DNA of 64,000 bases from Branchiostoma floridae (taxonomy: Eukaryota > Chordata > Leptocardii > Amphioxiformes > Branchiostomatidae): the NCBI RefSeq assembly GCF_000003815.2, contig NC_049996.1, positions 11,145,944-11,209,943 on the forward strand. Reading direction: 5' to 3'. Below are positions 1 through 63,375 of the stretch, piece by piece. The position numbers and the translations under genes were made by a program. The notes beneath the pieces were generated by a model. The model made no database searches. It was not told the origin of the DNA and saw only the letters and a program-made list of their open reading frames with translations. Positions within the stretch are counted from its first letter, which is position 1. Every line of letters begins with the position of its first letter.

Positions 1-3000
1 TTCAACTATTGCCAGCACATTCTGGTACACCCGTTGGTGGACGATCTCTTCTTGTGGATCTCCTAATTCTTGCCGCTTGCCACGTTTTAACACAGCATGA
101 TTGCCCGCAGTTTTCGATTCCGTGTCATGGCGTTTTCGGCGTGCTGGCTCCATCGGAGGTTTGTTTCTGGTCTGCAATATTGTGATGTTCAGGTTAACAA
201 TAGCTGCTACTTCGCCAGGCTGAACCCATGGTAGCTGTCCCTCTGCACGTATTGTTACCTGAATGTGGTCAATAGTAACAGTTCCATTTCGAAAGGGGAC
301 CAAAAACTGCCCACATACTTGCTGTGGGATGACAGCAGCTGGTGTTGCACATTCACCCAGAAGTTGAGCATGTGCTTGCTGGTACCTCTCACAGGCTTCT
401 CCTGTAAAATTGCCATATTTATGTGTTATGGTTATATTATATTACAGTGATGACTTTTTTCATAGCAATTGCAACAATAAGCTTGAATGTGTATACTGTA
501 GCTCATCTTAAGTTCAAGGTTCAATGTAAGTTACTGTATCTGTAGCTTTTTTATTTATTATTTTTGCTTATCATTATTGCATCTAACTTAGCTAATGAAA
601 TATGCATATAGGAATTCCTACAGTCGACTTTCAAAATGTGATAAAACCATGTTCTCAATAGTAAAAAGATGTTTTGTGTTATGCAATAAAAATGTATCTA
701 AATTTACTTACCCCGTAGTTCCAAGGTGGCATTTGCTCTGATAGTTCTATTGAAGAACTCTCTCTCCTCAGCAACACAAACGTATCTGGTAAAAGAAAAA
801 AATGAAATATTAATTTCAAAAGAGTTTAAACTCTAACACTGTTTGAATCTTAATCTGAATAATCATTTGGTGAACTTGCATATAAGCAGCCCCTCTGTGT
901 AATACACCAGCATTGCAAACAGGTTATATTACACTGAACAGATTGTCACACCTATACCTGTCCATACTGTGCCATTTGAGGCTATACAAATGTATATTGA
1001 AGAGTCCCATACCATATTTGTTAAGAGCAGGTCTGGTTCCATTCTGCAACAGTTCACCATTAAAGTTCATGGTAATCTCTTAAAAGACAACATTCTCTTT
1101 TTCAACAAGATTGTAGACTAGACTAATCAATAACTTACATGTATACCTAGCCATGGGCCTCATCTATCAACTTACTTTCCAGTATCAGCATCAGACACAG
1201 AATCAAAGATTATGGTGTTTCCCTGTGAGTTTGTGAATAGGGTGCCTTTCCGCAGCCACCTGACAGAGGGCGCTGGGTTCCCTCTTGTGACACAAACCAG
1301 CCTGGCGGGTTGACCGAGCGACCCCTCCACACGAGATGTGATGTACTGAATACTGGGGGGAACTACGGAAACAACAAAATTGGAGTTACTGCACAGAATC
1401 TTCACGTGTGCATAATACATTAAAGTGCATCGTTTTCAACCTCACAAACAATTTCTCATGCAGCGTGGAGACATTTCTACTGGGTGTCGAGTACAAGGAA
1501 CCCTGGTGCAAATCGATGGTACCCCGGGTAGGTGTCAGACTTTACTGTCAAACCTGTAACCTGTAACCTGTAAGTACTAGTAACTTCTGCACAAGGACCA
1601 CCTGACCATTGCGACCACTTTTTGGTGGTCCCTTAGATTATTTCTCCCATTAACACAAGCATTGAGAACCCTGTCTATAGTGACCACCCGTTGACATAGA
1701 CCAGATTGTATTGGCCTCCTGAGTGACCTTCTTGACAGTTGAGCAAAAGTAATAAAGATGCTTGCATCATTGTAAATCCATTGACATGACAGAGTCAACA
1801 GCCATTTGAAGACTCTAAATGCAATTAATAGTTATTGTTCATTTACACAGTTCTGTGGACCAATGCGGATGATGTACACACTCAGGTATTACCAACTTAA
1901 GGCATTTCAAGCAGATTCATTTTGGTCAGTATAGGAATCATTTATTCTGAGCTTTTTGGCAAATCATTATTTGGAACACTGAATGAGAGGTGCAACCACA
2001 TGATCCGACCGTACCTAGGAGAGTGATAAGCTTGGCTCTTGTTTTCAATTGTCTGTCAGGTAATAAAGTCTGGACCAATCAGATTGCGTCACGTTTGCCG
2101 CGTGGCGGGAAATCTGTTCTTGATTACTGTTACACCGGGATTTCCCCACCGTTCAAAACTTGTTTTCTATAAAGGCACATTCCTTACCAAAGCAGTTGCG
2201 GTATCGCTCAAGGAACTTTCGGTCCAGTTCAGAGTCTTGACATGTACCTGCTCCTCCCTTGTTCTGAAGTTCAGTCCTCCAAGCAGAGAAGGCTCGCAAG
2301 CATCCGAGATTCGAGTCAAAAGATTTAGGGTTGAAGTTGCAGCTGACCTGATTTAACTGTTAAGTACAATAATGTAGACAAAAATAATCAGAAATACTGT
2401 GACATAGATACACATGTAGCTTAGTGTATGAAATCACTAGGTCCCATATAGGGTGCATCTCATGATGTATTATTCATGTTTAGACTTATTTGATAACCCT
2501 GCCAAAAGTCTGTGAGAACCACAGCCGATCGCTCCCCAGTCAAAAACTTCTTGGAAAACAAATTTTATGAAACATGTAGAATAAAAATTTATACATAACA
2601 TTTCTTTCAGCTATTTTTCATTTCTTTTAAGAACTTTTCTATGTCTCGCCTCTGTAATATTCCATGGTGATTGCAGTAATCAGCAAAGGCTTTCAAATCC
2701 TATTGAGGATATGGATTTTTAAAATATGTCAATGTAACATCATGCTAATGTTACAACATGCTGATCATACGATCATCATCTGAGAGTGAATTCAAGTGAA
2801 TCTGAAAAGGATTGACAAATAATGCACTCTTTTCAACAAGCACAGGCCTAGGATCGTGAACAATGGACTGTCAAAGACAATGGACTCAGCTCAAAGATTG
2901 TCCATCTGCAATGCAAACATTGCTTTTTTTAATAGTCACCTGGATTAGGGAAACCGGGCTGAGGATTTAAACTCTTAACCTCTTGCTTAGCCTTAGACCA

Positions 3001-6000
3001 TGTGTGTATGTACATTATATTGTATGATATAAAGTGAAAGCAGACCTTAAGGTTCAGTGCTACACATGTTGAACACGGTTGGATGACAGGCTGACGGTTA
3101 TCCTGCAGACGTAGAGTGATGTTCAGGACTTGGTTTTCCTGCACTGCCAATGGTCTAAGTAACATCAGCTCAAGTGGAACATCACTACTACTGAGTTCTC
3201 TGGTCACCTGCAATAGGGAAAACAATTACCCATTGTCCATGAAGAGGCATAAACAGAAATAGTACACTACATTAGATTAAATGATGAAAACAGAATAGTT
3301 CTTAAAAGGTCTGACCACTGCTCTCAACATGTTGTTGACTGCTATATTGTCTATTATCATAATTATGTTATTGCCGGTTGTAGAGACTGCTAATCATTGA
3401 TGTATGCAGTATCATACACATGCATGACAAGTGTGCAAGCAATGAAAAGGCTGATGCCATATCTCACTATTTGCATGTACAGTATACGTATTTTGACAGT
3501 TTCAATTGTGAGTACTAGTAAATGCATGGAGAAGTAGCAAGGAATAGATAATATATTATACACAAATTTTTTTGAGACACAATTGACATAAGAAAATGAG
3601 ACATTTGACCAACAAGGTTATGGGAAATTTGCTACCCAATTTCAACACTGCGAATTATACTACTCCTTGTGCGGGTGAACATGCGCCACAGCATTTTGGC
3701 TGTGATCACACCTGCGGCACCATTAAAAGCTATCATTGCAGAGCGATGGACATCCAAGAGATAGAACAGAGATAATTCTTGAGCTCCTTACCTGTCCAAT
3801 AGCAGCAGAGGTGGTAGGTTCCCCACCCAGGGTGTATGTCACTCGTGCCTCCAGGTTCTGTGATCCCAGCTCTGCAATAAGTCCATGGTAGGAGTTGAAC
3901 TTATACCAGTAAACTGCAACCTGCATAATATTAAGAAGGATAATTGTGGTTTAAAATGAGCTCAGTCCTATATGTTGTAGTGTTTTAATTTTAGAAGATT
4001 GTATTACACAGAAACACCTTCATATGAATTGTGATCACAACCATAAGATTTACACCCCACCTATTGCTTGTGAATGACTCAGATAAATCATCGCAAAGCT
4101 AATCATGTTGGTGATCAGTTCTCTACCTTGAAACAGTCATACCCAAGTAAGAGACAAATACTTCCATACCGAGACGGCTTGTATTTCAAGGCCTGGGTTT
4201 GGTCTTTGTTGCGGCACAGTGACACTGAAAGTACCATCTTGTCCAGGCTGGAATAATTTCAAAAGTTGTCAGCAAAGATATCAACTGTATTTCAAACAAT
4301 ATTAGATAATACTAGACAAAACCATCAACAATATCTGGATGATTAACTATATGCAAGTTATAAAAACATGTTTTGTCCATATTTTACCAAATGCAGATCA
4401 ACATTTCTCAATATGATAATCGTCTTCATTATTTTCGTTTTAAGTTGACTGGCGTCATTTCCTAAACAATATTGTATTAACACTGACCTGATTTGCAAAT
4501 TGCTGACTATCTCTTGCACACTGCCGTTGCATTGATTGAAATAGAGTCTGGATAGACTCACATGTTGGATTTTCTACAGGAGAAAAAACACAGGTTCTAA
4601 ACTTCTGTTGTTGTGTCAGGAACACTAGATGCATTGTGACATAGTGTTTTAATGTACCCAGGATTACCTGAACAACACTTGGTCAGATGCTGTACGCTCC
4701 TACAACATCATAACAAAGTGAAAGTGATTGACTTGATATCCATTACAATGAACACATAAAAAAGTGTGTTTCCATACATACATGGATTTGTCAGGTGAGA
4801 GTGTCAACCATATGCCTATTAAACTTGTAGAAAACAGCTATCATAAAAATCAGGAAACATTAAATTTTACTCCTAAGGTTTAAGAAAATGTTAAAACATG
4901 GCTGAGGGGGTGAAGTCTGCTATCACTGCTTGCCTTGTTCCGCTAAGGATCAGCATCTGCTTGCTATGCCTTCCACACTGTTCTGAATACAGCATTAACT
5001 AACTCAATAGAAGTATTGGTAAATAATAGAGGAGGAAAAGAAAAATTATATTAACTTTACTGTGATATGTGTAATCATTTTATGCAGGGAGATGTTAATA
5101 TGCTAAAAGAGGAAACCTGATAACCTCTTTGCAATTAAGTCTTCTGTTATTAGTATTAGTCTTCAGTTTGTAAAGGTCAGAGATGTGAAAACTTGATTGT
5201 CTGGAATAATTGGACATATTTGAAGATGAAAGTGGAAGGGGTGTGGCCAGCAGGGGCAGGGACAGACAAGCGTCTGACAATGCCAGGTAACAATAAGAGA
5301 GAGACTTGATTTTTAACTTTCCTATCTGACTAACAAACTTGAAGTCTAAGAAAATTATTTTTTATGTATCCAAATGAGAATAACTGCACTACCGAGCCCT
5401 CTATTACTCTATATTACACATTTTAAGTCAACTCAACGCCATTTTCCAATATTCCAAGAGCTTTAAAATGTTCAACATTGACATTTGCAGCGGCATTGGA
5501 CAAAGATAATGTTCAGGCAAACAAAGCTATGGACTCTCAGATGATTATACTGCAGAATAGAATTTGTGGAAAGCCTATAGCTGGTAAAAAGACATCAACA
5601 AAACAACATAATTTTGAGATAGTTATACAGTTACTGTAAATAACTAGTTTCGGGAACTTGTGCAGGTGGAAATTGGTGAATTTTTTTTCATGCTTGACGA
5701 TATGAAGAAAGAGCGCTGTTCACATTTTAACTACAGACATTCTACCTAATGACGAACCTTACAGGAGGCAAGCATAGACAAGCATAGTGTACACAACACT
5801 TTACGTATGCCGTATGGTGCGTGCGCGGCGTCACCATTGTGCAGAACCGGTTTCGTCCCTCTGTCAGACGACAGCCACTATTGTGTTAAAGCTTCCACGT
5901 CTGAAATAGTTTGTAGAAGCGTAATACGCTTTTTTCAGTCCTTTCGAAGGTACTGTTGGACACAAAGGTGGGTGCCCCACATCAAAACCACATCGGACGT

Positions 6001-6513
6001 GAATGTTTATAACTTTCATTCCCGGACTTCTTGTTAAAGAAGTAACGTACGCCAATGTAGAATCCAGAAAGTGGCACGTCCCACGGCATGACTAAACAAA
6101 GGTGTTTCAATTTTTCCCACGACCCTTTTGACTTTAAAAATCAGATTTTCTTGTAAGTTATAGAAATGTCTGGTAAGCCTAAACATGCCTACATTGTGTT
6201 GATAAAATTAAAATGGTCACAAAATTCCTTCATTTTCCGCTGGAATGACCAAGAGGGTTAAAGGGAATTACCTCTCTGTATTCTAATTGAAATGGCATTG
6301 TCCTCAGGAAAAGATATCGATGTCCTTAAATCCAGAACAATTTTGAAAAGAACATGACGCCGCGCCATGCGAAAACTTACCTGGCGGCAACAAAGTCGGT
6401 GCCAGAGTGACTTCTCTCTGTCCATGGACGATCGTTTGGGATCCAAGAAAGGGCGATCTCACAAAGAACATCAACACAAACGCGAGAACAACCGCCGTAC
6501 AAGAACTGTCCAT
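1..6513 (-). CDS. Secreted Ig-domain protein with paired-Cys modules, 5' part (partial)
   Basis: Nine exons join in phase with GT/AG borders: 6513-6381, 4573-4488, 4247-4170, 3920-3792, 3207-3046, 2347-2188, 1362-1176, 785-712 and 401-1. The total is 1410 nt, 470 codons, and the frame stays open to the window edge. Start: ATG at 6513, followed by a hydrophobic signal peptide (about residues 1-25). Visible order: a Cys-x13-Cys helix-like segment (C49-C63); beta-rich stretch (74-180) with CSTC at 187-190; a Cys-rich segment from C199 to about 249; an Ig domain (250-336) with C273, W285, C315 and the DADTGKYVC signature; a second Cys-x12-Cys segment (C340-C353) followed by a beta-rich region; then ARRKR (423-427) and KRGKR (442-446), both furin-like. 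I do not recognise the whole protein and no transmembrane segment is seen. Extracellular location is inferred from the signal peptide, Ig domain and Cys pairs. Exon structure is well supported; function is unknown. Confidence 0.78.
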
Positions 6514-28645: not shown

Positions 28646-44070
<15,425 letters not shown>

Positions 44071-61448: not shown

Positions 61449-63375
61449 ATGGCGAGTCAAGTGGAAGACAAGAAAACCCAGGACAACACCGCTGATTCGG
61501 GACGGGATTTCCAGACAGTTCTGAGAAATGTCTGCGAACGTTTGGCTCCTCAAGACACCCGGCAGCTGAAGACTCTTCTCAAGGAAGGTCAATGGTCTAT
61601 GCATATTTTCAGATAAAACTCTACGTGACAAAAAAATGCCGCTGCCATTTTTGTTGTTAACGTTGTGCATCTCGTTCGTATTAGCGCATTCCGCCCAGCG
61701 TTTTTTTCTCAGCCATCTGTAATGCACCCTCCAAATATCTAAAATTTCCTTGACGGTTTTCAGTAGGTGGCGAACAAGAACGACGTTTTATCTGTTTCTA
61801 TAGACCAGGCAGAATTCTATATTTTCTAACAGGTTCAGTGTTCCAGTACCCATTGACACGTTGGGAAAAACGTTTTCTTGCTGTTTGAGTATCAGGGTAT
61901 ATTCACAGAGAGGGCGTGTTAGTCTTTCCCCTTAAGCGATGCTCGGGGCACCTCTTCGAATATAGAACCCCAAAGTTAACCCCCTTCCGAATGATTGAAC
62001 CGAAGTCTGCAAGTTACCATCTAATTAAACCCAGGAGCTGCAACCAATTGAGCTACGGACATCACTAGTTTTGAATTGTAAAAAGAGTTAATTTTTGCAT
62101 TCCTCTTAATCATTATCATATATTATTTCCCTCCAGATCCAATCATTACAAGATGGTTCCCGGGTGACCTGAGTCTAGAATCGCCCTCAGAACTCGTCCT
62201 CAGACTCCAGATGAACCGCATCATCTCTGCCGACAACCCACTCTTGCTGACGTCACTACTCTGGCGCCTGCGCAGATACGACCTTATCAAACTGCTATTA
62301 CAGCACGCAGAGACACTCTCGGATCAGATCCACTGCGCCCTGCCGTCTGAAAAGCCAGCTAAGGGATTCCATCAGCTGGCTCTTATTCTCAGAGCAAGCA
62401 TCAAGGACATGAGCCGAACTACAATGGAAGCGTTCCGTAGCCACCTAGCGAGAGCTGTTGGTATTCCACCTGAATACGCCTTTCTGGACGGTGTCCACCC
62501 TGACATGGAGAACTTGAGAACTATCATGACGATTCAGATCCCGGCTTCCTGCATGGAGCGCGCTGCTTCCGTACTTAGAAATGACGCAGTGCGCCGAGAG
62601 TTAATGACCAATGGCGTCGAGTCCATCAGGATTTCGAAAGGAAATGAGATTCGCATTACAGTTGAAAGTGAAGCGGAGGAGCCGTCAGCTAATGAAAATC
62701 TTCCAGCGCTGGCTAGCAATAAATGCTGCGCTGATGCGAGGAAAGAACTGATCCTTCAGCTCGAGGCAACAGGAGGGTTGCGCCAGGAGGTTGAAAAGCT
62801 TCGCTTGGAGAATGCAAAGCTGCAGAACTACCACGACGCGAGCCTCGCGCGGGAAGCAAACCTGAGAAAGTTGCTCCAGGACAGACTCGCGAAATCTGAG
62901 GAAGACGCCGAAGCGATGAAAGCGCTTACCAAAAAGATGGAGGCCGTTCTGGCAGAGAAAGAGCGCCTGGAATCAAAGATTGCTGAATCTGATCCGTTAA
63001 CACAGCGCCAAAATGCGTTCGGAGGAATCGGCAGCCCCACTATTTCTGCTCAAAGCACCAGAGGTAAGGCGTGGGACTTTAGCTGAAAACTAATCCTATG
63101 GTTTGGGGACCTTTTTGTAAAGAGAACCTGACCCGTACATGCGGTTGGGACTAACCCTTGCGACAACATACTAAGATGCAAGCTTGCCCATATTGGCTGT
63201 ACTTAGTAATCAATACATTTTTAATACATAACATATCATTTATGCCATTTGTGATTTTTTTTTTAATTTAGGCAAAGATGGAGAGACGAAATCCAAACCA
63301 CGTGCCCAGCCACACGTGAAGGCGAGACCGAGCCAAGTGGCACAACCAAGGGGACGGCACAACACTTCACTGTAG
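61449..63375 (+). CDS. Death-effector-domain coiled-coil protein, complete
   Basis: Three exons: 61449-61587, 62137-63063 and 63272-63375 (TAG), 389 residues, phases 1 and 1, good borders (GAAG|GTCAAT is the weakest donor). The ATG at 61449 has context AAAATGG, and upstream in-frame sequence has no ATG. N-terminus (about 15-103) is a death-effector domain: FQTVLRNVCERL, DTRQLKTLL and SADNPLLLTSLLWRLRRYDL, with the R-x-D-L charge motif at 93-96. A central alpha/beta-like region (about 138-223, VGIPPEYAFLDGVHP, NGVESIRI) recurs in invertebrate death-fold proteins as I remember them. A coiled coil spans about 248-331, and the C-terminal tail is basic. The likely role is a cytoplasmic adaptor in apoptotic or inflammatory signalling through DED homotypic contact; no caspase domain is present. 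Partner unknown. It is convergent with the GPCR. Confidence 0.85.
61885..62066 (-). mobile_element. tRNA-derived SINE, family S2, copy 2
   Basis: The minus strand has TAGCTCAATTGG (A box) and CGGTTCAATCA (B box), then ggggttctatattcgaag and aggtgccccgagca, as in the copy at 46060-46310. It lies in intron 1 of the DED gene, about 70 bp before the acceptor. Confidence 0.65.

Follow-up and report, generated by a model that had tools for sequence, protein, structure and literature searches.

The first 6,513 positions of the window (the whole stretch of DNA analysed, 64,000 nucleotides of the Branchiostoma floridae genome) encode on the minus strand the larger part of a cassette consisting of a putative signal peptide, a cysteine-rich module A, an immunoglobulin (Ig) domain, a second cysteine-rich module B and a second Ig domain. 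This cassette is, with somewhat better than even probability, the upstream ectodomain part in an ADGRG-like adhesion GPCR locus with a tandem duplication of its 5' half; in this reading the locus would provide two receptors, a long one with four module-Ig pairs and a short one with two, with module B acting as a cleave-and-hold element. Judged by its sequence matches, the locus is an adhesion GPCR. Its cassettes carry a real, repeated and unnamed ectodomain module on this known receptor class.

Exon structure of the window cassette

A sequence-only reading of the window had joined nine exons (window 6513..1, minus strand) into a protein of 470 residues. This join was borne out: the frame is open without a single stop codon, the phases fit, and GT donor and AG acceptor are present at 8 of 8 internal junctions. 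The protein is not complete at the window edge, where the reading had left it. Exon 9 runs on to L002:9170, L002 being the stretch next to the window, downstream of the gene, in which positions are given as L002:position, and is followed there by exons 10 to 12. The whole cassette, termed copy 1, comprises 12 open exons with 12 of 12 GT donors and 11 of 11 AG acceptors. In the following list, identities on the amino acid level refer to a second cassette, copy 2.

Exon 1, window 6381..6513 (-): start codon and signal-peptide-like segment, phase-1 end
Exon 2, window 4488..4573 (-): module A, C49-x13-C63 segment; 29% identity to copy 2
Exon 3, window 4170..4247 (-): module A, VPQQ...LEIQAVS; 46% identity to copy 2
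Exon 4, window 3792..3920 (-): module A; 40% identity to copy 2
Exon 5, window 3046..3207 (-): module A, with C-x2-C; 47% identity to copy 2
Exon 6, window 2188..2347 (-): module A, tail C-x19-C-x15-CF
Exon 7, window 1176..1362 (-): first Ig, N-terminal part; Pfam Ig_3 4.1e-12; 57% identity to copy 2
Exon 8, window 712..785 (-): first Ig, C-terminal part; 58% identity to copy 2
Exon 9, window 1..401, the first 401 of 676 nt, remainder L002:9170-9444 (-): module B, C340-x13-C354 and predicted strands
Exon 10, L002:8733-8633 (-): completes module B of the window cassette
Exons 11 and 12, L002:8449-8293 and 8081-7981 (-): second Ig of the window cassette

The Ig domain of the window part covers residues 251-318 in the Ig_3 match. 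Seven Pfam families matched the 470-residue join at E <= 10, all of immunoglobulin type and located within residues 251-322. A PDB sequence search with the join yielded 164 matches at E <= 10, the best 60 of which all overlapped the Ig region with their best stretch. A single Ig domain between two modules had been described; this holds for the window part, but the complete cassette has two Ig domains, each preceded by a module.

Elsewhere in the window, an open frame of 334 amino acids (window 62082-63083, plus strand) had a weak match to the Death effector domain (E 0.011, 16.4 bits versus a cut-off of 35.9). Another open frame (window 38845-39588, minus strand, 247 amino acids) consists of short repeats, probably the translation of a tandem repeat. 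At window 40339-40438, exactly 100 N in a row possibly mark an assembly gap.

The downstream cassette and its receptor class

The second cassette lies on the same strand in the same order (module A', Ig, module B', Ig) and continues in frame into a SEA-like part, a hormone-receptor-like part, GAIN, GPS and seven-transmembrane segments. The model of copy 2 has 29 exons and 1,422 amino acids, no stop codon and GT/AG at the internal junctions, and ends short of the C-terminal tail. An orphan secreted family as full account was rejected, and with it the isolated secreted protein of the sequence-only reading: the cassette is duplicated in tandem, and its downstream copy is fused in frame to GAIN, GPS and 7TM. 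Pfam matches in copy 2 were 7tm_2 (1.9e-43, profile 3-250 of 250), the class B2-type seven-transmembrane domain; GPS (4.8e-16), with HL-T within CNHLTNF; Ig_3 (3.1e-22, two stretches); GPR128 GAIN subdomain A (9.1e-11); and GPR128_N (3.5e-6), the latter with 27.5 bits versus a cut-off of 27.2. GAIN subdomain B stayed below the cut-off (0.019), as did SEA with 22.0 bits versus 26.4 over profile positions 2-103 of 106, a stretch that includes the motif GSVIT. In a PDB search, GPS and 7TM together matched ADGRG2 (1.6e-59), ADGRG6 (1.1e-57), ADGRL3 (9.8e-51) and ADGRF1 (8.3e-35), a ranking by matches among receptors with a PDB entry, not a tree. The stretch from SEA to GAIN had no PDB sequence match at E <= 1. 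We assign the locus to the adhesion GPCRs because of the 7tm_2, GPS, GAIN and GPR128 matches, and these Pfam matches together with the proximity of GPS and 7TM to ADGRG2 and ADGRG6 in the PDB suggest an ADGRG-like receptor. It is not regarded as an orthologue of GPR126 (ADGRG6), since neither CUB nor PTX was found among the 19 Pfam families matching the 1,422-residue model at E <= 1.

An ADGRF5-like origin, suggested by the combination of SEA and Ig, was rejected. ADGRF5/GPR116 (Ig-Hepta) carries Ig domains, as does the present receptor, and is not known to have eight-cysteine modules. The 7TM domain, however, ranks ADGRG2 and ADGRG6 (1.1e-57 or better) well above ADGRF1; ADGRF5 itself was absent from the matches listed. 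According to one study, the SEA modules of ADGRF1 and ADGRF5 contain a GSVVV-type motif (PMC6954182), which the GSVIT of copy 2 resembles by sequence.

The literature describes GPR126 as a series of CUB, PTX, SEA, HormR and GAIN (PMC6954182) and the order SEA-HormR-GAIN also for ADGRG4 (PMC13197933). The amphioxus receptor shares with both the order of SEA-like part, hormone-receptor-like part, GAIN/GPS and 7TM, and differs from both in the SEA-to-GAIN stretch, which is without PDB match at the threshold given above. In place of the CUB and PTX of ADGRG6, undetected here with Pfam, it has eight-cysteine modules and Ig domains. Human GPR126 has a furin site in its ectodomain, within SEA (PMC6954182); furin-like motifs are present here too, but the strongest lie in module B, not in SEA. 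With ADGRG7/GPR128 it shares the matches to the two receptor-specific Pfam models GPR128_GAIN_subdomA and GPR128_N; it has modules, Ig domains and a SEA-like part in addition, and its GAIN subdomain B is below cut-off. A survey of the amphioxus repertoire from 2008 reported 37 adhesion GPCRs, including members of group VIII (the ADGRG group); some carry Ig I-set or further domains that are uncommon in this family, and CUB is also among the domains reported (PMC2246102). Its domains were found by Pfam models, thus a module without a model would have escaped the survey; the comparison was made at the repertoire level.

The eight-cysteine module

The comparison covered four modules, two from the window cassette (A and B) and two from the second cassette (A' and B'). 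Each has exactly eight cysteines, a first gap of 13 residues (C-x13-C), a sixth-to-seventh gap of 19 and a tail C-x19-C-x12-15-C-F with last gaps of 15, 15, 14 and 12 among the four. Both cassettes retain the full set of eight cysteines in every module. In all four cases the module stands directly before an Ig domain, with a phase-1 intron between them. The spacing C49-x13-C63 had been recognised correctly in the first module; the second pair, given as C340-x12-C353, is C340-x13-C354 and has the same spacing. With eight cysteines distributed randomly in each of two such chains, the two gaps were simultaneously equal at a frequency of 0.0003 in 200,000 trials, a value to be read with the gaps having been chosen after their agreement was seen. 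Gaps 2 to 5 differ between A-type and B-type modules, and introns split the modules differently, A into five exons and B into two.

Identity is 44% between A and A' and 39% between B and B'. Between the types, the four A-B pairs of whole modules were equalled by 65, 48, 160 and 47 of 500 shuffles. The tails (last ~45 residues) were equalled by 3, 0, 116 and 3 of 500, the third of these comparisons being negative, and the heads by 43, 12, 137 and 142. For the middles the similarity was not significant (43, 228, 97 and 60 of 500 shuffles as good), and the likeness seen earlier between the beta regions VPQQ..LEIQAVSV and VPF..IDHIQVTI was not borne out by these values. With two sequences for each module type, hhalign aligned 39 tail columns of A and B only (E 0.04, probability 1.3%). 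Because of the common cysteine frame and the position before an Ig domain with a phase-1 intron, modules A and B look like copies of one repeated domain. The case for their homology is built on the cysteine frame; plain similarity is weak outside the tail.

No Pfam family, the only protein family library searched, matched modules A or B above its cut-off; APOBEC_C reached E 0.012 on the module B exon of copy 2, below the Pfam cut-off. The best matches in profile searches of the PDB were unrelated enzymes, with E 0.53 for module B and 0.89 for module A. In the genome, copy-1 exon 9 found one other match, copy 2 at E 1e-24 (2 matches, 5 candidates scored), and the copy-2 counterpart of exon 6 found itself and copy-1 exon 6 only (2 matches, 2 candidates scored); with two module exons as queries, short and divergent exons elsewhere may be missed. 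The module was not met among the titles and abstract openings listed in literature searches, and the gene may nevertheless have been described. Of the unclassified extracellular protein that had been proposed, the repeated module without Pfam or PDB match stands, while the isolated protein built around one Ig domain is not the full account. The sequence-only reading knew no family with this order; the modules are indeed without match, yet the locus falls into a described receptor class, the adhesion GPCRs.

Two furin-like sites, also noted in the sequence-only reading, are present in exon 9 and by motif are likely proprotein-convertase sites:

Furin-like RRKR, residues 424-427, window 130..141 (-): aligns with RRR of copy 2; between predicted strands
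Furin-like RGKR, residues 443-446, window 73..84 (-): aligns with RFKR of copy 2; between predicted strands

Two R-x-[KR]-R motifs within 25 residues occurred in 48 of 20,000 shuffles of a string composed of the signal exon, module A and the whole module B, with Ig left out. Exon 9 of both copies, i.e., the module B exon only, was modelled with AlphaFold, each from a two-row alignment. Confidence was poor (copy 1: mean pLDDT 49.6, pTM 0.47; copy 2: 51.2 and 0.52). Both low-confidence models had the same order of elements, an N-terminal helix over C-x13-C, strands, a low-confidence stretch and strands again. In exon numbering, copy 1 had strands at 30-35, 41-51 and 64-77, the low-confidence stretch at 80-114 and strands at 117-132, 137-149 and 154-162; copy 2 had strands at 36-38, 43-51 and 68-82, the low-confidence stretch, partly helix, at 85-112 and strands at 116-131, 134-146 and 150-158. 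The basic clusters fall inside the low-confidence stretch (copy 1: RRKR 87-90, RGKR 106-109; copy 2: RRR 89-91, RFKR 106-109), and in these low-confidence models both are thus predicted between beta strands in both copies. Fold searches with the models of the module B exon gave many unrelated beta-sandwiches at scores typical of no match, among them PHR, GOLD, carbohydrate-binding, TNF-like, toxin and phage baseplate folds; TNF family matches came from Foldseek with the copy-2 model only. We regard it as rather doubtful that the most detailed picture applies in full, in which modules A and B would be one undescribed extracellular domain (C-x13-C helix, beta-sandwich, C-x19-C-x12-15-C-F tail), module B a furin-cut cleave-and-hold element in series with SEA and GAIN, and alternative promoters would choose between two and four module-Ig pairs.

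One locus or two genes

The cassettes align exon by exon. Over 11 exon pairs, pS was 0.60 and pN 0.33, and the ratio of 0.54 supports coding use, an argument that is weak for copy 1 alone because both lineages are pooled and pS approaches saturation. One exon departs from the others: the last Ig exon (L002:7981-8081 versus L002:781-881) has 94% amino acid identity and a pS of 0.11, and in the remaining ten pairs identity is 29-71%. This suggests recent sequence exchange or gene conversion at this exon. At L002:610-657, the end of the last Ig exon occurs a third time as a partial copy of 48 nt; the full exons match it with 79% and 85%, and it may have been left by another cassette.

If the window cassette were a partial duplicate in decay and without function, its lack of a 7TM would be explained, and the recent exchange at the last Ig exon would fit such a history. 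We consider this very improbable, as all 12 exons are open with intact donors and acceptors and the eight cysteines are kept in each module; the pN/pS ratio, within the limit given above, points in the same direction. A serious alternative, though one we hold for the less probable, is that there are two genes: the window cassette would be a stand-alone secreted protein derived from a duplication of the 5' half and serve as soluble decoy for the same partner, and the downstream gene would be the receptor. Copy 2 indeed has a candidate first exon of its own (L002:7015-6904, minus strand), signal-peptide-like and with a working phase-1 donor, an argument for two transcripts or two genes. Among the 2,158 ATGs on 103,144 minus-strand bases, 19 were signal-like and three of these also had a phase-1 donor, namely exon 1 of copy 1, this candidate and one more in the interval between the cassettes, whose splice would create a stop (by eye). 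Exon 1 of copy 1 and the candidate exon are not similar; 642 of 2000 shuffles scored equally well. Moreover, if the exon-12 donor of copy 1 is read through by intron retention, the protein ends with 693 amino acids, thus a soluble product is possible. These points are opposed by the gap of 1,292 bases between the cassettes (L002:6689-7980), in which inspection by eye revealed no spliced terminal exon of copy 1, and by the phase of exon 12: it ends in phase 1, and a junction to copy-2 exon 2 is in phase and without stop. The candidate first exon lacks a splice acceptor, so a transcript from upstream is expected to skip it.

In the favoured reading of a single ADGRG-like locus with a tandemly duplicated 5' half, an upstream promoter would lead to the splicing of copy-1 exon 12 to copy-2 exon 2 and to the long receptor with four module-Ig pairs. 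A downstream promoter would use the candidate first exon of copy 2, which brings a separate signal peptide, and give the short receptor with two pairs. The module-Ig pairs may bind a ligand or the matrix. Furin would cut the loop within module B, and the module, probably held by disulphides, would not release its halves before force or binding separates them. Self-cleavage of GAIN at HL-T and a possible cleavage of SEA at GSVIT would provide further break points, and loss of the outer part would expose the tethered agonist.

The ectodomain tunes an adhesion GPCR, and whether its outer part can be shed depends on cleavable links within it. Module B, if it is a cleave-and-hold element, would add one more breakable link to SEA and GAIN. 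A receptor in which an unnamed repeated module with furin-like sites stands in series with a SEA-like part and GAIN would be a test case for how stacked breakable links set the response to force. The locus would equally be a test case for the variation of ectodomain length by partial tandem duplication.
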